Shown here one piece after another: positions 12,942 to 27,652 of a stretch of 27,778 nt of DNA. The stretch is from IMG/VR virus record IMGVR_UViG_3300010885_046422, positions 1-27,778 of that record; one strand, written 5' to 3'. A program made the translations under genes and the position numbers. Source of the stretch: a virus. Under the pieces are notes generated by a model. The model saw only the letters and a program-made list of their open reading frames with translations, did no database searches and had not been told where the DNA came from. Position 1 is the stretch's first letter. Every line of letters begins with the position of its first letter.

Positions 12942-13598
12942 TTATTTTTTTACAGCAATAAATGTAGTAAAACACCAAGTAGAATTGGCAATATAGATTT
13001 TTTTAAATCCTATAGATTTTAAATTTTTTAAATACCAGTCGACAGTATCAACGAACAACACCCCTTCCAGCGATTTTGCCTTTGACTGTATTTCTTCATC
13101 ACTAACACCATTACTAGATTTCCATTGATGATATTGTTCTAATGCTAATCCCGAGTTTTCCGTTTTTTCTGATAAAATTAAAAATCCATTTGAACTCATG
13201 GAATCATAGATATTTTTTAAATAATCTATCTTATTTTTTATAAAATGCAAGGTCCAGTTACACAAAACAGCATCAAATGATAAATCTATTCTAGGAAAAT
13301 CAGAAGAACAATAATAAGTTGCGGCGTCTTTTGGACAGTAATCTAACATATCTTGACTTTGGTCTACCGCATGTATATTTTTATAGCCTTTTTTGCTCAG
13401 TCTGGAAACAGTTTCTCCGATGGCACAGCCTATTTCTAATATATTAGAATTTTTTTTTACTTTTTGTGTGCAAAGATTGATTGTGAGATCCAACACTCTC
13501 TCGTAATCAGGAATATGCTGTCTCGCATGCTGATTAAACTTTTGGGCCACTTCTTTATTAAATTTCCATTTTGGTTGTAATTTAAAAGTGTCTATCAT
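12942..13598 (-). CDS. CmoA-like SAM-dependent methyltransferase
   Basis: 218 aa. FNKEVAQKFNQH...IPDYERVLDL at residues 13-38 resembles the N-terminus of CmoA. ILEIGCAIGET (53-63) is the SAM motif I, and AVDQSQDMLDYC is motif II. LHFIKNKIDYLKNIY, GFLILSEK and SKAKSLEGVLFVDTVD match the CmoA C-terminal half. CmoA makes carboxy-SAM from SAM and prephenate for tRNA wobble uridine (cmo5U34) modification. It is shorter than E. coli CmoA (about 247 aa), and at the position I align with the carboxylate-binding Arg there appears to be Asn (DWYLKNL), so a plain methyltransferase is possible. Last gene of the minus operon, with a 4-base ATGA overlap to the PP-loop gene. No cmoB is present here. Confidence 0.65.
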   Translation of the reverse strand: MIDTFKLQPKWKFNKEVAQKFNQHARQHIPDYERVLDLTINLCTQKVKKNSNILEIGCAIGETVSRLSKKGYKNIHAVDQSQDMLDYCPKDAATYYCSSDFPRIDLSFDAVLCNWTLHFIKNKIDYLKNIYDSMSSNGFLILSEKTENSGLALEQYHQWKSSNGVSDEEIQSKAKSLEGVLFVDTVDWYLKNLKSIGFKKIYIANSTWCFTTFIAVKK

Positions 13599-14767
13599 AT
13601 TACATAATCCTGACTGATAGCATTTCTAAAACCACTTTCAATAGAATTGTTATCATTGTACCAACGTTTATAATGTTTTTTGTTATCCATAAATGTGGAT
13701 TGATACATTTTCCAATGTATATCGCTGCCCGGATATTTAGAATTAAAAAACCATTCATCTCTATTTCCCCAAATATTTGATGTATTTTTAATATCATAGA
13801 ATTCTTCTTTTGATTTAAAAATATTTGGGTATATAATATCTAAAAAAGAACGTGACATTTTATCGGTCGTCCAGCCAAACCCCGCAGTAAAATTTTTAAA
13901 ATAATTTTCTTTATTTTTAGAATAACTTTTCTTTATTAAATGTGACTGTTTGATACATATATCTACACATTCTTTGACGGGAGCCCAATAAAAAAATTCA
14001 TAAGTTCCTATATTACCATCGTCTATCATCTGCCTCATTGGTGTGATATTAGTTTGGATCAACCCATCAAAAAAATTAAATATCCATCTATCTTCATGAT
14101 ATCTCAATTGAGGTTTATCCACACCATAAATCCATGCCAATTTTTTTCCATGTGAGATTATAAATTTCCAATCTTCCACATAACTATAAGATAAATCAGT
14201 AACAATATGATTCACACTTAACGCCGAACCAAACATATAAAGAAGATCCTTGCCTAGATTTAAATTATTAACCATCTTATCCCATTTAAAAAAATAGTCG
14301 GAGTAATCAAATTTTCTAATTTTAATATCAGGATAGTTTTTTTTAATGTCATCTAGTTTTTTCCAAGTTATTGATGATAATTCTTTGTATTGATTACTAA
14401 TAGTATCATAATTGCTATAAAACACGCAAATTTCATCTAATTTTATATTATTATCTAAAAAAGCATATAACATATTAACACTATCATAACCACCACTATA
14501 ATATAAAACTAGATAATCATAATTTTTTCTCAGTTGCTCGGCTCTCTTTTTATATAATTCATCTATGGTCTGTCGTGGTTCATCGCTCCAATTATATGAA
14601 CTAAAAAACTCATCATTATAATTCCATTTCCATGACTGTGGAGAAACATGATGCTCATCCATGAGCTCATATCTGCTATAAGTTTTTAAATTGCCAATTT
14701 TATAATAGCCATATCGATCTCCGGGCCTATTAATAATTGCTGTATTTTTTATCATATTCGGGGTCAT
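13595..14767 (-). CDS. PP-loop ATPase (adenine nucleotide alpha-hydrolase superfamily)
   Basis: 390 aa. LVLYYSGGYDSVNMLYAF carries the PP-loop SGGxDS (S91-S96), used by enzymes that adenylate a substrate: asparagine synthetase C-domain, TilS, QueC, ThiI and PAPS reductase. A downstream strand (LDEICVFYSNYD) fits the second beta strand of the fold. The rest is Trp/Tyr/Lys-rich and not recognised. There is no glutaminase domain, so it is not a full asparagine synthetase. An alternative start at 14755 removes four residues. It overlaps the upstream oxygenase-like gene by 26-38 bases and the downstream methyltransferase by four, which shows tight coupling. The product could be an amidated or thiolated small molecule, peptide or tRNA; this is inference. 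Confidence 0.7.
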   Translation of the reverse strand: MTPNMIKNTAIINRPGDRYGYYKIGNLKTYSRYELMDEHHVSPQSWKWNYNDEFFSSYNWSDEPRQTIDELYKKRAEQLRKNYDYLVLYYSGGYDSVNMLYAFLDNNIKLDEICVFYSNYDTISNQYKELSSITWKKLDDIKKNYPDIKIRKFDYSDYFFKWDKMVNNLNLGKDLLYMFGSALSVNHIVTDLSYSYVEDWKFIISHGKKLAWIYGVDKPQLRYHEDRWIFNFFDGLIQTNITPMRQMIDDGNIGTYEFFYWAPVKECVDICIKQSHLIKKSYSKNKENYFKNFTAGFGWTTDKMSRSFLDIIYPNIFKSKEEFYDIKNTSNIWGNRDEWFFNSKYPGSDIHWKMYQSTFMDNKKHYKRWYNDNNSIESGFRNAISQDYVI

Positions 14768-15407
14768 TGTAATCAGGTCCTAATGCTCTCAATCCTGTAT
14801 CTGGGCGGGTATGCCATATATTCGCCCAATGATTTTTAAGGAAACCAACCTGCAGAGCCACTCTATTCTTCTCCAAATTCTCTACACTGTGTAATACTCT
14901 TGAATCTATGATACACCAGGTATGCAATGGTATAGTGATTCTATCTACTTCTTTTAAAATCTTAAAATCTGTGCCTTGTGTCTTAGGTGGACGTAATAAA
15001 CTTTTGCCTTCTTCTTGCCAGAACACAGTTGGAGCATCTCCCCCGGTCTGCAATAGATATATCAAAGTAAAATCTCTAGTTATGTCTGTGTGTGCGCCTG
15101 TGCTAACTTTTTGCAATCCTTTGGGTTTTTCAACCACTACAGTATAGTTAATACCTGCATCCACAAAATCATTGCTAATATTATCAACTACCCATTTTTT
15201 AAATTGATCGTTCTTGGTTCTGATATTAGCGGCGGCAGCATAATCGTGGTCTCCCCAATTTTTTAATCGTCTGTGTACAAATATACCCAACTCCATTCTT
15301 TTTTCTTCCGCAGGCATGTCTGGTTTTTTTTGTAAGTCAATACCTTCCAATAGATCTGCCGGTGGAGTCGGCAGATCTAAAAACTTATACAGTTGATACT
15401 GTTCCAT
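14730..15407 (-). CDS. 2OG-Fe(II) oxygenase-like (double-stranded beta-helix) protein
   Basis: 225 aa. GAHTDIT gives H106-x-D108, VLHSVEN gives H173, and NRVALQVGF gives R182. This is the HxD...H...R facial triad plus 2-oxoglutarate-binding Arg of Fe(II)/2OG dioxygenases, with strand spacing consistent with the jelly-roll core (TLIYLLQTGG; IPLHTWCIIDSR). No membrane segment or signal peptide. Such enzymes hydroxylate or desaturate small molecules, peptides or nucleic acids. It starts three bases from the stop of the transporter gene and overlaps the PP-loop gene, so these are co-expressed. The substrate cannot be told. Confidence 0.65.
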   Translation of the reverse strand: MEQYQLYKFLDLPTPPADLLEGIDLQKKPDMPAEEKRMELGIFVHRRLKNWGDHDYAAAANIRTKNDQFKKWVVDNISNDFVDAGINYTVVVEKPKGLQKVSTGAHTDITRDFTLIYLLQTGGDAPTVFWQEEGKSLLRPPKTQGTDFKILKEVDRITIPLHTWCIIDSRVLHSVENLEKNRVALQVGFLKNHWANIWHTRPDTGLRALGPDYNDPEYDKKYSNY

Positions 15408-15410
15408 TAA

Positions 15411-16664
15411 TTATTCTTCTTCTTTTGCTAAGAAGATACAGATTGCACTCACTATAGCACAGGTAACAAGCATGACACTTATTCCTGTGGTACTATTAAA
15501 CTTAGCAACCATATATCCGGACAATAGCGGCAATAAACCTCCACCTATACCAGCAGCAATGTTTGATGAGAATCCCACTCCTGTGGTTCTTATCTTTTGA
15601 TCAAACAACCTAGGCAAGAACGATGGCATTAATGCGAATGACAACATTGTGCCTAATGCGTGCCCGGCGATAATCACAGTTTTTACACTGTTTAAGTCGC
15701 CAGAGTTTACCATTACAAACATAGGAAATGCCATTAATAACACAATGATACAACCAACGTATAGTATTGGCTTGCAACCAATCTTATCCGAGATGTAACC
15801 ATACAAAGGCATAGCAGATATAGAGATTAAACATGCTATCATTAGAGCATTTAATAATTCCTGCTTAGGTAATCCTAGTTTCGTAGTTGCGTATGCAATG
15901 ATAAAAGCAGTGATACAATAACTGTTAGTAACTTCATTTAATTTTACTCCTGCAGCAACAAATAACTTTTTTGGTTGGTTCTTTAAAATATCCCAAAATG
16001 GATTTTTTACAAATTGTTTTTTTGCAACCATCTGTTGAAATATTAGAGTTTCTGTCAACTGACTTCTGATATATCCTCCTATTGCTATCAATATTACACT
16101 AGCAAGAAAAGGTATCCTCCACCCCCAAGAGATAAAATCTTCTTGAGGTAATTGTGATAATAGATAAAAACAAGCAGCAGCTAAAAATATTCCTGCAGGA
16201 TTTGCTAGTTGTATGAAACTACCATAAAATCCTCTTCTATTTGCTGGTACGTTTTCGTAAATCATCAATGCGGCAGCACCGAACTCTCCACCAAACGATA
16301 ATCCTTGCAATATTCTTAATGCAACCAACATCACGGCTGCCCAAACACCAATCGAATTATAGGTAGGCAATAATCCTATCGCAAAAGTACAAAGACCCAT
16401 CAGCATGGTGCTCAGCATCAGTGCATATTTTCTACCCTTGGTATCACCTATGTGCCCAAATAATGCTCCCCCAAACGGTCTTGCCACAATGCCCACAGCG
16501 TAGGTCATCAGTGCTAGAAGCATGCCCACTACTGGATCTTCCTGAGGGAAGAAGACTTTATTAAAAACCAAAATTGCAGCATTGGCATAGATGAAAAAAT
16601 CAAACCATTCCAATATCGTTCCGATGGTGCTTGCCGCAACAATTTTATTCACTCCACTTTTCAT
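15411..16664 (-). CDS. MFS transporter, metabolite:H+ symporter (MHS; ShiA/YhjE/ProP-like) family
   Basis: 417 aa with twelve hydrophobic segments. The opening ASTIGTILEWFDFFIYANAA is the MHS-family signature in TM1. GHIGDTKGRKYAL near residues 75-87 is the MFS loop 2-3 motif. LRILQGLSFGGEFGAA is the TM4 motif, and GYISDKIGCKP is the repeated loop 8-9 motif. Full length for the family, with no break. MHS members import shikimate, proline/betaine, citrate or 2-oxoglutarate; the substrate here is unknown. A good Shine-Dalgarno (AGGAG) lies about ten bases before the start. A full-length MFS carrier is very rare in phage. As first gene of the operon, it may supply the substrate for the enzymes downstream. 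Confidence 0.9.
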   Translation of the reverse strand: MKSGVNKIVAASTIGTILEWFDFFIYANAAILVFNKVFFPQEDPVVGMLLALMTYAVGIVARPFGGALFGHIGDTKGRKYALMLSTMLMGLCTFAIGLLPTYNSIGVWAAVMLVALRILQGLSFGGEFGAAALMIYENVPANRRGFYGSFIQLANPAGIFLAAACFYLLSQLPQEDFISWGWRIPFLASVILIAIGGYIRSQLTETLIFQQMVAKKQFVKNPFWDILKNQPKKLFVAAGVKLNEVTNSYCITAFIIAYATTKLGLPKQELLNALMIACLISISAMPLYGYISDKIGCKPILYVGCIIVLLMAFPMFVMVNSGDLNSVKTVIIAGHALGTMLSFALMPSFLPRLFDQKIRTTGVGFSSNIAAGIGGGLLPLLSGYMVAKFNSTTGISVMLVTCAIVSAICIFLAKEEE

Positions 16665-16717
16665 GAAATAATACTCCTATAATGTTATTTTTGTTATTTG
16701 CTAATAATACAGAATGT

Positions 16718-16747
16718 ATTATATACGATAGGCGTTACATGGCACAA
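16718..16747 (-). promoter_or_regulatory. Probable promoter of the minus-strand operon (TTGTGC-N18-TATAAT)
   Basis: On the minus strand a perfect TATAAT occupies 16723-16718, preceded by 18 bases and a weak -35 TTGTGC at 16747-16742. The predicted leader of about 45 bases ends with AGGAG before the transporter ATG at 16664. The -35 overlaps a small inverted repeat (CATGG-cacaa-CCATG, 16738-16752) that could be an operator. Confidence 0.5.
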
Positions 16748-16756
16748 CCATGGTAA

Positions 16757-16820
16757 AGACATCAACGTGTCAGGCGTCTATTTTTATTCGACGTCGCATG
16801 AAGCGGCGTTGCATGAATAT
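16757..16820. repeat. Intergenic structured region with direct and inverted repeats
   Basis: CGTCGCATGAA (16792-16802) and CGTTGCATGAA (16807-16817) are near-perfect direct repeats. GGCGTC (16773-16778) can pair with GACGTC (16790-16795), and CAACG (16763-16767) with CGTTG (16807-16811), making a two-tier hairpin. No coding support was found for this stretch. It could be a small RNA, an operator or a remnant terminator between the minus-strand genes. Confidence 0.35.
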
Positions 16821-16844
16821 TTATTCAAGAAAGAATCGTTATTT

Positions 16845-17048
16845 TTAATCGCGGTCCCATGGAATAGAACGGAAAGGCATTGGTTTACCATTTGCATCAC
16901 AAATCAACTCACCATTGATTGCTGCTGACATATATGTGCCTTGACCTACAGCTTTACCTACATATTTAGACGCTCGCACTTCTTGTCCTTTGTAGTAACG
17001 CTTCTTCTGTTCCTGTCTAATTCCAGGATTATTTTTTGATGTACTCAT
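16845..17048 (-). CDS. Small hypothetical phage protein (67 aa)
   Basis: Basic protein; the C-terminal half GTYMSAAINGELICDANGKP followed by MPFRSIPWD reads like the NG-x-(L/I)-(I/V)-x-D-x-x-G-x-P-x-P(Y/F) pattern of small beta-rich phage proteins. No domain named. The first in-frame ATG (17084) would lie within the promoter region, so the ATG at 17048 is chosen; it also fits the seven-base -10-to-ATG spacing seen elsewhere. Divergent from the tmRNA and upstream of the transporter operon in the same orientation. Confidence 0.6.
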   Translation of the reverse strand: MSTSKNNPGIRQEQKKRYYKGQEVRASKYVGKAVGQGTYMSAAINGELICDANGKPMPFRSIPWDRD

Positions 17049-17055
17049 GATGCTA

Positions 17056-17084
17056 TAATTAGCAGAATTTGACAAAGATGTCAA
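17056..17084 (-). promoter_or_regulatory. Possible minus-strand promoter TTGACA-N17-TAATTA
   Basis: Minus-strand TTGACA at 17084-17079, 17-base spacer, weak -10 TAATTA (17061-17056), seven bases to the ATG at 17048. The -10 is poor; the perfect -35 and the shared geometry are the support. Confidence 0.4.
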
Positions 17085-17097
17085 CTTATGTTTAAAT
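17069..17097 (+). promoter_or_regulatory. Probable tmRNA promoter TTGACA-N17-TTAAAT
   Basis: Perfect -35 TTGACA at 17069-17074, 17-base spacer, -10 TTAAAT (17092-17097). The predicted start near 17104 is just upstream of the tmRNA acceptor piece. Its -35 and that of the divergent promoter form the inverted repeat TTGACA-AAGA-TGTCAA. Confidence 0.6.
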
Positions 17098-17103
17098 AAC
17101 AGC

Positions 17104-17435
17104 GTAAACGTTGAAGTACAAAGATAGTTTTAACGGACCCGGCTCGATGCCGGCACCTCCACCAAAGTTATTATTGGTGGCTTATGTAATCCCTATCGGG
17201 GGTGATATGAATCGACGTATTATGAAGGTTGTATGGAGTTTACCAGTTAGGTACCCTGTAAAGGTCCAATGTTATAAATGCTACTAAAAAAGCATTTGGA
17301 TTCGCTGACTTAACAGTCGGTAGATCTAAAATGAGATTGGCTGCTTAATAACCAGCTACCTCGGCGGTGATGACTTACGTGGCAACAGAAAAGTCTGAAC
17401 TGTAGGGATCGCAAGAGCCATACGGGATTTTTGTA
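17104..17435 (+). ncRNA. ssrA: Permuted two-piece tmRNA
   Basis: The acceptor (3') piece comes first: a T-arm-like CCGG-CTCGATG-CCGG (17139-17153), then CACCTCC-A-CCA ending at 17164 with CCA encoded. After a 33-base spacer the 5' piece begins with GGGGGTGATATGAATCGACG at 17198. GGGGGTG (17198-17204) pairs with CACCTCC (17154-17160), including a G3-U pair at the alanine-identity position. The tag frame, with resume codon probably GCT at 17280, encodes 22 residues starting ATKKAFGF and ending KMRLAA, then TAA TAA (17346-17351). Permuted tmRNA genes are typical of alphaproteobacteria and some cyanobacteria and betaproteobacteria. Its product tags stalled nascent chains for degradation and frees ribosomes together with SmpB. 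The T-stem is one pair shorter than usual. The outer ends are estimates. Confidence 0.88.
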
Positions 17436-17444
17436 AGGTAATCA

Positions 17445-18401
17445 ATGAATAAATTTTTTAATTCTAGGCTTCCTATATTGGAGGCAGCCATGGTTGGAGG
17501 ATCAGAATTACCACTAGCATTGGCTTGTTGGGACGCTGGTGTATTTCCAAGTCTTGTGATTGAATATTGGAAAAAATTAGACAATGGAGAATTTAACTAC
17601 GATCTTGTTAATGATACACTTAAAGAATTTGTAAAATCCACAGGATCAGCTGATGTGTTGGTAGCGATTGGTATAGCAGATTTTTTTGATAACGAATTAA
17701 TGAGTATTCTTAAAAATTTTAAAGTCAGCCATATAGAACCGTTACCTAAACATGATGATTACCATGAGAGAGCCAAAGATATATTTGATAAGAATTATAA
17801 CAAGGCCTTCTCTGCCATTGTTAAAAATATGTATCCTGCTAAAATACTTTGGAGGGTTAAGAAACCCGAAATAGATCCCACAGACGGTATGTCCATAGAT
17901 AATAAAAATTTATGTTTTTGTATCAAAGGTTCAGATGCTGCTGGAATGAATGGCGTGATGCCGACCATTGAATTGTTTAACGAACAAAAAAAATTAACAC
18001 CAAATGTTAATGTGATTCCATATGGGGGTGTAGGTACTCCTCAGCAGGTCAAAGAATACCTGGACAAGGGTGCAGAGGTGGTTGCTGTAGGCACATTGTT
18101 TGCGGCCTCACAAGAAAGCACATTATCCATGGAAACAAAAAAAGCCATGGTAAAAAATAATAAAAATAATACTGTTAAACTCGAAGATACGGGACAGAAT
18201 ACTTTGTTATTAGGAAAAATTGAAGATGTCTTACAGGATAAAAGTAATTGGAACAGAGGAAAATCTTTCGAAAAAGGATTGCACGGAGATGGCAAATCTG
18301 GACACATATACGTAGGGCACGGTATAGATCATGTTAAAGAAATTAAAACTGTTAAACAAATAGTGGAATATTTGACCAGCGAACTCAATGAAAAAAATTA
18401 A
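17445..18401 (+). CDS. Nitronate monooxygenase/2-nitropropane dioxygenase-like TIM-barrel protein
   Basis: 318 aa. The N-terminus LPILEAAMVGGSELPLALACWDAGVFPSL matches the P-I-x-x-A-x-M-x-G-x-S start of FMN-dependent nitronate monooxygenases (also shared with IMPDH-like barrels). IPYGGVGTPQQVKEYLDKGAEVV and VGTLFAASQES match the phosphate-binding strand 7/8 loops that hold FMN. The catalytic His of classical NMOs is not obvious. It starts directly after the tmRNA and overlaps the next gene by 14 bases. Detoxification of nitronates or a redox role is the family default; the phage function is unknown. Confidence 0.7.
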   Translation: MNKFFNSRLPILEAAMVGGSELPLALACWDAGVFPSLVIEYWKKLDNGEFNYDLVNDTLKEFVKSTGSADVLVAIGIADFFDNELMSILKNFKVSHIEPLPKHDDYHERAKDIFDKNYNKAFSAIVKNMYPAKILWRVKKPEIDPTDGMSIDNKNLCFCIKGSDAAGMNGVMPTIELFNEQKKLTPNVNVIPYGGVGTPQQVKEYLDKGAEVVAVGTLFAASQESTLSMETKKAMVKNNKNNTVKLEDTGQNTLLLGKIEDVLQDKSNWNRGKSFEKGLHGDGKSGHIYVGHGIDHVKEIKTVKQIVEYLTSELNEKN

Positions 18402-19191
18402 ATTAAATTTTAAAAATGCAAAATCACAGAGCGAATCCTTACAGTATTCTCTTGCCGATAACATAGTTGCTGACAAGTGGATTAAAAAAATAAAGCATTT
18501 ACAAAAGATTAAACCCAGCGAAACAGAAACCTCGGGATATCATAAAGGTACTTTAGAAAATTTACACAAAGAATATTGTCAATTCGCAGGGATAGAATAC
18601 TTTGATATGGATTATTCGCAGCAGTCATCTCTTAACGCATTGCACGAAACCTATGAGCAAAATCATGAGAGGTTGAGCAGACAAGAAAATAATGAAATAA
18701 TCTATCAATTTCATCAAGCCATACATGCACAGGAAACACAGTACGAAAAAACGTTATATCATTACGTAGGTTGGGGAACCCTCGAAGGACCATTAACAGA
18801 AATTTTTAACTGCAATGAGCATTATGCAGATGCCATGTTAAAAAACAATATCTATCTGCCATGGGCCGAATTGGGCAAGACACCATTACACTATTTCGAG
18901 GACAAAGAACCATCTCACATCGAGAGAATATTTGAATTGGTCAAACCACATGTGACTTTACGACCAAAGTTCGTTATCTGCAAGGGAGACAAAACAGTCA
19001 AAAAATTATCAAAAGAATTCAGGGACTGGTTCCAGCCTTATAAGAATCCATGGTTGAATCATTATAGTATAACAGATTGGCGAGCCAAGGACGAACACTC
19101 CGCAGTGTTGCTGGCAGAATGTGATGATCGTTCTCTGGACATAAAATTATTTCTAGACAGTTATCCTTTCTTTGATTCTATGGTCATATAA
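18388..19191 (+). CDS. Hypothetical protein (267 aa)
   Basis: Overlaps the end of the NMO-like gene by 14 bases, so it is translationally coupled. A basic N-terminus is followed by a His/Glu-rich helical region (NHERLSRQENNEIIYQFHQA, then IHAQETQYEKTLYHYVGWGT, residues about 96-137), which could bind metal but shows no named motif. The C-terminus alternates strands and acidic turns (LLAECDDRSLDIKLFLDSYP). No signal peptide or membrane segment. Family not recognised. Confidence 0.65.
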   Translation: MKKIKLNFKNAKSQSESLQYSLADNIVADKWIKKIKHLQKIKPSETETSGYHKGTLENLHKEYCQFAGIEYFDMDYSQQSSLNALHETYEQNHERLSRQENNEIIYQFHQAIHAQETQYEKTLYHYVGWGTLEGPLTEIFNCNEHYADAMLKNNIYLPWAELGKTPLHYFEDKEPSHIERIFELVKPHVTLRPKFVICKGDKTVKKLSKEFRDWFQPYKNPWLNHYSITDWRAKDEHSAVLLAECDDRSLDIKLFLDSYPFFDSMVI

Positions 19192-22165: not shown

Positions 22166-23254
22166 ATGATTAATAAGAAACGTGAAAAACGTAGACTTTT
22201 GGATGTGTTACCAGAAGTAGTGACTGCACTCAACAATACCATTAAAGGTTATCCAGAGTTAGAAAAAAGAGCACAACACAATTTACAAAAAAATTTACAA
22301 TCAGGAGTTGCCTTCCCTAAGGGCATCATAATGACACCAATCGGACAGATATGGATCGACTATTCCGTACAGAGAGATATCAAACACAAACACGTGGCCA
22401 AAATATTGGATCGATTTGATCCAAGGATCTGCATGCCGGCGGCCGGAGTTAAAATAGCAGGCGATGAGAGTGATAGAATCTATGTCTATGATGGACAGCA
22501 CAGATTGGTGGTGTTGGCTCTGTTAGGAGTGAAGGAAGTTCCTATTTGTGTGGTGGAGACTGGGGAATTAACATTCCCCGCCAAAGCATTTGAAATATGT
22601 AACGATTCGGGCATAGCCAAAGCCAGCAAGGGAGACATACACAGAACATTATTATATAGATGGAAAAACGGTAACGACTTAGACAAAGATGATCTCAAAG
22701 TTAAGAACGCACAAAAGATGCAATCTGTTTTTGATGAGTGTAATATTGATCTAGAAGAAAAAAGAGTTAGGAAGAGCGAGAACCTAAAAGGAGATAGTCC
22801 TTATTTCTTCAGTCATTTTGATTATGCTGAGAAAGGAATAGCAGAAGGTCGAGATGTACTCAAAAACATCTTAACAGCTATAAAAACTGTGTATTCCGGG
22901 GAAGAGGAAATTGATCAAGGTTTATACATAGGATTATTAGAGATGGTCAAACGTGCCAGGGTGGATCACATGTTGGATGAGTTACCGGAAGGTTGGATGA
23001 TCGATCTTTTAAAAGTTATAAAATCATCACTGGGCACCGCTGAGCACACACACGCAATAGCTAAATTGCAGTGGCAACACACTCGAGGTACTTCTTGGGA
23101 CGCACCTGTGGCCATGTGTAATATTTTAAGAGAAGTCTTTAAACTAAAAGCCAGCGAAGAATCAAAACAAAAAATACATCCACCATTTGTAGCCAATGTT
23201 AATGTGGGTATATTAGATAGCAATCTACATCCACAGTTTAGATTCCTAGCATGA
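22166..23254 (+). CDS. ParB/Srx-fold DGQHR-domain protein
   Basis: 362 aa; ATG 22166 is chosen over an upstream in-frame TTG because of the Shine-Dalgarno AAAGGAG eight bases upstream. QIWIDYSVQRDIKHKHVAKI (residues about 61-80) resembles the ParB N-terminal entry (…VQR…HV). VYDGQHRLVVLALLG (107-121) carries the DGQHR motif shared by DndB, DGQHR-domain and ParB-like nuclease/NTPase proteins. The C-terminal 200 residues are helical with no HTH I can name. ParB-family domains can bind CTP; whether this one does is not known, but it is coupled by ATGA to a CTP-synthase-like gene. First gene of an operon ending in DNA ligase. Confidence 0.75.
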   Translation: MINKKREKRRLLDVLPEVVTALNNTIKGYPELEKRAQHNLQKNLQSGVAFPKGIIMTPIGQIWIDYSVQRDIKHKHVAKILDRFDPRICMPAAGVKIAGDESDRIYVYDGQHRLVVLALLGVKEVPICVVETGELTFPAKAFEICNDSGIAKASKGDIHRTLLYRWKNGNDLDKDDLKVKNAQKMQSVFDECNIDLEEKRVRKSENLKGDSPYFFSHFDYAEKGIAEGRDVLKNILTAIKTVYSGEEEIDQGLYIGLLEMVKRARVDHMLDELPEGWMIDLLKVIKSSLGTAEHTHAIAKLQWQHTRGTSWDAPVAMCNILREVFKLKASEESKQKIHPPFVANVNVGILDSNLHPQFRFLA

Positions 23255-23886
23255 CACACATAATAATATTAAATGGCGTACACTCGGCAGTGGACAAAGT
23301 AGGACTGGCGAAAGATTTAAAGAAAAGTATCAAAGGTTCGGTGGATTACAAATATTTGGATCCATGTTTAAATGTCTCAAAAAAAGTAACAGCAGAATAC
23401 AAAACGGTAGGACATATCATATCTGAAGTGTTGGAGAAAGAACGCCACGGAGATTACAAAGGTGGCACGGTGCAAGTAACCCCTCACATAACAGAAGAAA
23501 TTCGAAAATGGATTGTTAATACCAAGGCAAAAAATACTATCACAGTGATAGGCGGCAACGTGGGAGACTTAGAAAACCAATTAGCCATAGAGGCAGTGAG
23601 GGAGATGACTCTAAAAGAAAACGTAAGAATAATAATGTATGTTCCAATACCGTATCTTCGAGCAGCAGGAGAAATTAAAACCAAGCCAGTGCAACATTCT
23701 GTCAAAGAATTGATGCGTATGGGTATTATGCCTTATGCTCTATGCCTGAAATCCGATATGGATCTTAAAGACAATGAAATTAATAAAATAGCATTGTTTA
23801 CAGGTGTACCCAAAGATAGAATAGCATGGCATACCAATGGATACGAACAATGTGTCAAAGTATTGTCTAAAAACTTATTAAAATGA
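23251..23886 (+). CDS. Shrunken CTP-synthase-like (PyrG amidoligase domain) protein
   Basis: 211 aa. The PyrG core is recognisable: LDPCLNV (36-42), EKERHGDYKGGTVQVTPHIT (62-81), GGNVGDLEN (101-109), AGEIKTKPVQHSVKEL (139-154) and KIALFTGVPKDRI (179-191). Normal PyrG is about 545 aa with a glutaminase domain; this lacks that domain and also a segment of roughly 55 residues that contains the DDGAETDLDLGHYERF block with a Mg-binding Asp. The second Mg ligand (Glu of EVGG) reads Val, and the P-loop is altered (NGVHSAVDKVG), keeping the Lys. It is therefore probably not an ordinary CTP synthase: a pseudoenzyme, a CTP/UTP sensor, a modulator of host PyrG or an enzyme with new activity. ATGA overlaps on both sides. 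Confidence 0.8.
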   Translation: MTHIIILNGVHSAVDKVGLAKDLKKSIKGSVDYKYLDPCLNVSKKVTAEYKTVGHIISEVLEKERHGDYKGGTVQVTPHITEEIRKWIVNTKAKNTITVIGGNVGDLENQLAIEAVREMTLKENVRIIMYVPIPYLRAAGEIKTKPVQHSVKELMRMGIMPYALCLKSDMDLKDNEINKIALFTGVPKDRIAWHTNGYEQCVKVLSKNLLK

Positions 23887-27269: not shown

Positions 27270-27441
27270 TGATAAAGATTTTGCTTTTTTTACAAAAAAC
27301 GCACAAAAAGATAAAAGAGCAAGACAGATACAAGATCAGATCATACGAGAGCGTAACATAGACATTAAGAATGTTTCTGTAGAGATGTTCCATGAGATAA
27401 TTAAAGAAGCAGAACAGAAAGCAAACAAAGAGAATGGCTAA
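27262..27441 (+). CDS. Small charged protein (59 aa)
   Basis: ATG 27262 is set by a strong AGAGGAG about seven bases upstream; the frame also opens at 27235 inside the hydrolase gene. The protein is Lys/Glu-rich and helical ([20 protein letters not shown]). No motif. It overlaps infA by eight bases, so it is probably translated with it. Confidence 0.6.
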
Positions 27442-27652
27442 AGAGGACACACTAAAATTTACTGGAGAGGTAACCGAAGTATTACCAAACCAAATGTTTC
27501 GAGTAAAACTAGAGAACGGTCATACCGTACTAGGATATGCCAGTGGCAAAATAAAACAGAATAAAATTAAAATAATTCAAGGTGATAAGGTAGAAGTAGA
27601 AGTAAGCCCATACGATCTTACCAAAGGACGTATTACTTTTAGGATGAAGTAG
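27434..27652 (+). CDS. infA: Translation initiation factor IF-1
   Basis: 72 aa, full length. [47 protein letters not shown] and [12 protein letters not shown] match bacterial IF-1 across the whole OB fold. IF-1 binds the ribosomal A site during initiation and works with IF-2 and IF-3. A phage-borne copy is unusual; with the permuted tmRNA in the same genome it points to phage control of host ribosomes. It overlaps the upstream gene by eight bases and converges with the minus-strand frame at the window end. Confidence 0.93.

Follow-up and report, generated by a model that had tools for sequence, protein, structure and literature searches.

A circularly permuted tmRNA gene with a long tag in a relative of T4-like marine phages

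The window analysed here is an entire IMG/VR record of 27,778 bases, a linear fragment that carries a circularly permuted tmRNA gene at positions 17104-17401 together with genes for a tail spike, a virion protein, an exonuclease, a PAAR protein, and NrdA/NrdB. A tmRNA releases stalled ribosomes and marks the incomplete protein for degradation. NrdA is 71% identical to its counterparts in Pelagibacter phage Mosig and Synechococcus phages, and NrdB is 64% identical to that of HTVC008M. The Gp23 capsid protein was found in a 242-kb relative (L529) and was not found in 14 other, mostly short, relatives. The window is a phage contig with relatives among the T4-like marine phages; a bacterial chromosome, which the first-pass annotation had kept in view, is rejected, since the tail spike, virion, exonuclease, and NrdAB genes lie in one whole IMG/VR phage record and phage relatives share the gene order. 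Variable cargo flanks the tmRNA gene (12942-19188), with a methyltransferase, an MFS transporter, and others upstream and an NMO-like protein downstream; in the relative L085, the tmRNA lies directly between neighbours o11200 and o19255. No phage relatives were found with the protein after the tmRNA as query, and an endonuclease query returned mostly unrelated phages with only that gene in common. The window also encodes a phage translation initiation factor IF-1 at 27434-27649 (Pfam eIF-1a; 85% identical in L070), which is a second translation gene in this tmRNA-carrying lineage, and a stand-alone protein at 23251-23883 that matches only the N-terminal domain of CTP synthase (CTP_synth_N, 137.8 bits) and is conserved in relatives.

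Within the tmRNA gene, all of whose features lie on the plus strand, the acceptor piece is upstream of the coding piece. The acceptor piece (17104-17164) runs from the 5' strand of P2 to the encoded CCA at 17162-17164. Its first bases, GUAAAC (17104-17109), pair with GUUUAC (17238-17243) of the coding piece to form P2, and direct reading gives the 3' acceptor strand CACCUCC (17154-17160) followed by ACCA. The coding piece (17198-17395) starts with the 5' acceptor strand GGGGGUG (17198-17204), which forms 7/7 pairs with CACCUCC, including G3-U, and continues through the P2 strand and the tag frame to a 3' hairpin (GACUU/AAGUC, 17372-17376/17391-17395) with the loop GGCAACAGAA. The tag frame (17280-17351) consists of ATKKAFGFADLTVGRSKMRLAA, 22 codons (17280-17345) beginning with the resume codon GCT, and a TAATAA stop pair (17346-17351). 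Thus, the permuted order, perfect G3-U stem, encoded CCA, and LAA end before TAA TAA that the first-pass annotation had described are all present in the sequence.

Two Rfam covariance models, for which membership is a score above the curated cut-off, recognize the gene. RF04321 (tmRNA_permuted), a merger of three bacterial permuted families (PMC11915505), matches 17104-17312 with 77.8 bits (cut-off 47, E 1.5e-13, cmscan with the full model), and RF01849 (alpha_tmRNA) matches 17050-17401 with 59.9 bits (cut-off 50, E 2.4e-14, cmscan). The latter is the search that had been proposed as a check, and together the two matches bear out a phage-encoded permuted tmRNA within 17104-17435. The RF04321 score of the window is the lowest among the tested members of its subclade, whose tags begin ATKKAFGF or AKSKAFGF. 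When 27 relatives were compared with shuffles, the outer helix of P2 was 99% paired, the inner helix was 89% paired (57% shuffled) with 6 compensatory pairs, the T stem was 99% paired (62% shuffled), and the 3' hairpin was 82% paired (49% shuffled). Thus, the helices joining the acceptor and coding pieces, the T stem, and the 3' hairpin covary across the 27 sequences.

ARAGORN reported no gene at this locus, probably because the T arm, CCGGCUCGAUGCCGG (17139-17153), has 15 nt where 17 is normal. Since ARAGORN misses short-armed genes, such tmRNAs are probably under-annotated in phage genomes. The canonical T arm (5 bp, 7 nt), a usual though not strictly defining feature, is lacking here, and the T arm is 17 nt in 94 of the 97 alphaproteobacterial sequences measured. 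Arms of equal length with covarying stems are present in 16 other phage contigs, giving 17 phage sequences in all, and the short arm is a trait of the subclade of the window. A bacterial donor of the short arm was sought by pattern in about 85,000 bacterial genomes, where none of the 14 matches was a tmRNA. T arms in the wider phage lineage, which is defined by NrdB, have 15, 17, or 18 nt and loops of GGCAGUA, UUCGA, or others; given this variation, the short arm was probably derived within the lineage. It might weaken folding or EF-Tu binding, and it offers a test of how small a tRNA-like domain can be and still work.

Upstream of the gene lies a σ70-like promoter (17069-17096), with TTGACA at 17069-17074, a 16-nt spacer, and TTTAAA at 17091-17096. 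An alternative -10 element, TTAAAT (17092-17097), has a 17-nt spacer and is preceded by TG. The promoter was not listed by a consensus promoter scan, a result attributable to the non-standard -10 box, but TTGAC[AT]-N15-18-(TATAAT/TTTAAA/TTAAAT/TATAAA/CTTAAA) is present upstream of the tmRNA in 26/27 relatives (shuffles, mean 0.025). The window promoter also resembles a T4 late box in variant form, TTTAAATA, and the -10 element of the lineage promoters is often this same sequence. In addition, TATAAATA is enriched upstream of permuted tmRNAs (42/100, compared with 12.4 shuffled), which raised the possibility of a pure late promoter; this was set aside, since the TTGACA conserved at a distance of 15-18 nt makes a σ70-type promoter more likely. 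Late transcription is possible because the -10 box is non-canonical. Early expression of the tmRNA is therefore likely as judged from these elements, but not certain, and the predicted transcription start falls at or near the 5' end of the acceptor piece.

The two RNA pieces are separated by an intervening sequence of 33 nt (17165-17197), in which UGGUGG (17175-17180) is complementary to the CCACCA end and could base-pair with it before the precursor is processed; in the window, UGGUGG and the acceptor end fold as a 7-bp hairpin. This motif is present in 13/27 relatives (shuffles, mean 0.6), all of which have tags of type I (see below), and its pairing may guide or delay 3' processing. Downstream of the coding piece, an imperfect hairpin followed by a T run (17402-17432), which a consensus scan did not call, is a probable decayed terminator. 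The sister phage L085 has a perfect hairpin at this position, without the T run.

The tag peptides of the lineage fall into two families. Type I tags, which include that of the window, have 22-25 aa and the pattern A[NTK]x[KR]A[LF][GR]FAD[LFV]TV...[LM]RLAA; type II tags have 23-24 aa and the pattern EVTVP...EL[VLM]AA, for example, ANAFKPEVTVPVSIFADAELVAA and ANKRFVSEVTIPANFLVGSELMAA. All 27 tags of the analysed set end in AA. The peptide is identical in L070, L071, L085, and L088, whose codons differ synonymously. Among 12 tags of 22 aa, changes lie mostly at the third codon position and pN/pS is 0.32 (shuffled median 0.71), a value reached by 1% of column shuffles. The 24-aa set gives 0.46 (2% of shuffles as low), and the 23-aa set, at 0.47, is indistinct from shuffles (20% as low). 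These values point to purifying selection on the peptide, which constraint at the RNA level could mimic; selection along the peptide would argue for a role of residues besides the LAA end. A search of INPHARED with the tag peptides (tblastn) gave no match, 22-23 aa being short for BLAST. The first-pass annotation had called the tag both longer and more basic than common alphaproteobacterial tags. The greater length holds in the genomes sampled (22 aa compared with mostly 9-14 aa), while the basic charge (net +4) is confined to the subclade of the window; tags of sister phages range from +3 to -2, so basic charge is not a trait of the lineage.

Two-piece tmRNAs have been published for phages, where they account for 53/133 structures, mostly aquatic, and Methylophilales phage Melnitz and Pelagibacter phage Mosig are, like the window, T4-like marine phages with a permuted, alpha-type tmRNA (PMC9004378). 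Scanning IMG/VR by pattern yielded about 140 matches to permuted tmRNAs, 100 of them with distinct upstream regions and most with short, ANDN...LAA-like tags. The earlier view that a permuted tmRNA is unusual in a T4-type phage is thus not upheld. In Mosig the tmRNA also lies close to an exonuclease gene, but its tag is GEDNFALAA (9 aa, compared with 22 in the window) and its T arm has 17 nt rather than 15. A glutamine riboswitch is reported in PMC9004378; the window has no Rfam match for one.

The wider lineage consists of 78 newly fetched loci whose NrdB is 79-96% identical. A tmRNA was detected by pattern in 34 of these and, when 7 pattern-negative loci were re-checked with a covariance model, in 4 of the 7. 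Long tags are present in 36 of the 38 tmRNA-bearing loci, or 36/78 of those fetched, many of the remaining loci ending before the expected place of the tmRNA; of the two exceptions, the tag of L529 is short (ADENLALAA), and L514 ends before the tag. What is new here is an NrdB-defined phage lineage having an alpha-type tmRNA with tags of 22-25 aa in two families. No description of this long-tag family was found in the open-licence papers searched.

Like the two-piece tmRNA of alphaproteobacteria (RF01849), the window tmRNA has the permuted gene order, the acceptor stem, the GGCAACAGAA 3' hairpin, the resume Ala, and the LAA end, and the alpha-like T loop GGCAGUA is kept in sister phages. Differences are found in the tag, which in the hosts is ANDN-type and mostly 9-14 aa (about 110 fetched regions), in their 17-nt T arm, and in the RF01849 score, since most alphaproteobacterial genomes over the cut-off score roughly 160-318 bits compared with 59.9 for the window. 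In an alignment-based tree, the long-tag group is placed on the side of the alphaproteobacteria and Mosig, away from the majority of the permuted tmRNAs of other phages, with the weak support of short sequences (0.14 at the common node). Of the 20 genomes closest to the window by IF-1, 17 carry alpha tmRNAs, compared with 140/398 in the whole sample, and this similarity would fit a host, or a source of genes, among the alphaproteobacteria.

An alphaproteobacterial host or origin had been suggested previously, with SAR11 for comparison. The alpha type, seen in the RF01849 match and the tree, fits the first part. A SAR11 host is not supported: in the 30 genomes read from a SAR11-like order (a name that we infer), the tags have 9 aa (ANDELALAA, ANNKLALAA, ANESYAIAA), compared with 22 here. 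A direct copy of a SAR11 tmRNA was rejected, as the sampled SAR11 genomes have these 9-aa tags and the T loop GGCGGTA. Long, basic tags of 24-31 aa, for example, ANKKGRTPRVAANRNVRRKVALAA, do occur in two small orders of alphaproteobacteria (represented by G351 and G347), but these tags are without the FADLTV motif and the T arm is a normal 17 nt. The members of these orders (L404-L413) have small genomes, and their strongly basic tags contain AANRN-like motifs.

The anatomy, the tag frame, the covarying pairing between the pieces, the conserved promoter-like box, and the purifying selection on the tag together suggest, with a probability of about 0.7 on this sequence evidence, that the gene specifies a functional alpha-type, two-piece tmRNA that would use host SmpB and host proteolysis and bears a phage-evolved tag. 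SmpB was found neither in the window nor in 34 related phage records, which are genome fragments; hence, host SmpB is assumed. In the proposed sequence of events, host RNA polymerase would transcribe the tmRNA early from its own promoter, and host tRNA-processing enzymes would excise the 33-nt spacer by cutting after CCA and ahead of GGGGGUG, leaving two pieces. Host AlaRS would charge the tmRNA via G3-U, and host SmpB and EF-Tu would then deliver it, in the infected cell, to ribosomes that have stalled on broken mRNA. Translation would resume at GCU and add AATKKAFGFADLTVGRSKMRLAA, the first Ala coming from the tmRNA itself, and the stop at UAAUAA would free the ribosome. The LAA end would direct the tagged chain to a ClpXP-type protease, with the remainder of the tag, which differs from host ANDN tags, probably making degradation independent of the host adaptor or tuned to the benefit of the phage. 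This lineage, in which the tmRNA has a separate, conserved promoter and a long, peptide-selected tag, is a clean handle on why phages carry tmRNA, and since the tag is unlike sampled host tags, host and phage tagging should be separable by mass spectrometry in one cell.

Because it is conserved and unlike the label of the likely hosts, the long tag may steer tagged proteins differently. The first-pass annotation had raised such a redirection of proteolysis, which purifying selection on the peptide would permit. A bolder form of this idea, which we regard as tentative, is that the tags of 22-25 aa are more than extended degrons and are peptides shaped in phage evolution, with an internal motif (KALGFADLTV or EVTVP..FADAEL) that assigns stalled chains a fate chosen by the phage. 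Candidate fates, equally tentative, are a different protease or adaptor, aggregation, and attachment to a phage factor. If true, the phage would rewire host quality control. Somewhat less probable still is a role in counter-defence, with the phage tmRNA providing back-up rescue in abortive infection, where mRNA or the host tmRNA is cut by host RNases or toxins, and it is similarly doubtful that its divergent sequence serves to escape a nuclease or adaptor aimed at the host tmRNA. The divergence of T arm, spacer, and tag around a retained rescue core, together with the independent promoter, would suit such a role, but many sister phages have the standard 17-nt T arm.

The shortened T arm, imperfect terminator hairpin, and lowest RF04321 score of the subclade could instead mark a tmRNA captured from a host and now decaying in the phage, a passenger without a role. 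This is improbable, as the lineage, though diverse, retains the tag frame, G3-U, CCA, covarying helices, and promoter, the 15-nt arm is common to 17 sequences with covarying stems, and the tag differs greatly from the closest host tags sampled. Least probable of all is a decoy acting chiefly by saturating host trans-translation or competing with it: PMC11915505 cites a tagless tmRNA form of phage DS6A for which this is reported, and states that a phage tmRNA can inhibit host tmRNA, and a tmRNA without a phage SmpB must draw on the host pool, but a decoy such as the tagless DS6A form needs no long conserved tag, and here the tag appears to be under selection with AA at the end of every tag. The functional two-piece tmRNA remains the preferred reading.

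Other tags of note were seen among phages. Three phage records of 171-372 kb (L444, L445, and L447) contain another long permuted-tmRNA tag, AKASKFEYMTVDFSLEAADMVA. Different phages with a common, 70% identical nuclease (L449-L451, from the records of L106, L107, and L109) carry a SAR11-like tmRNA, with the tag ANESYALAA compared with ANESYAIAA in two genomes and an identical T arm, CAGGGGGCGGTACCCTG.
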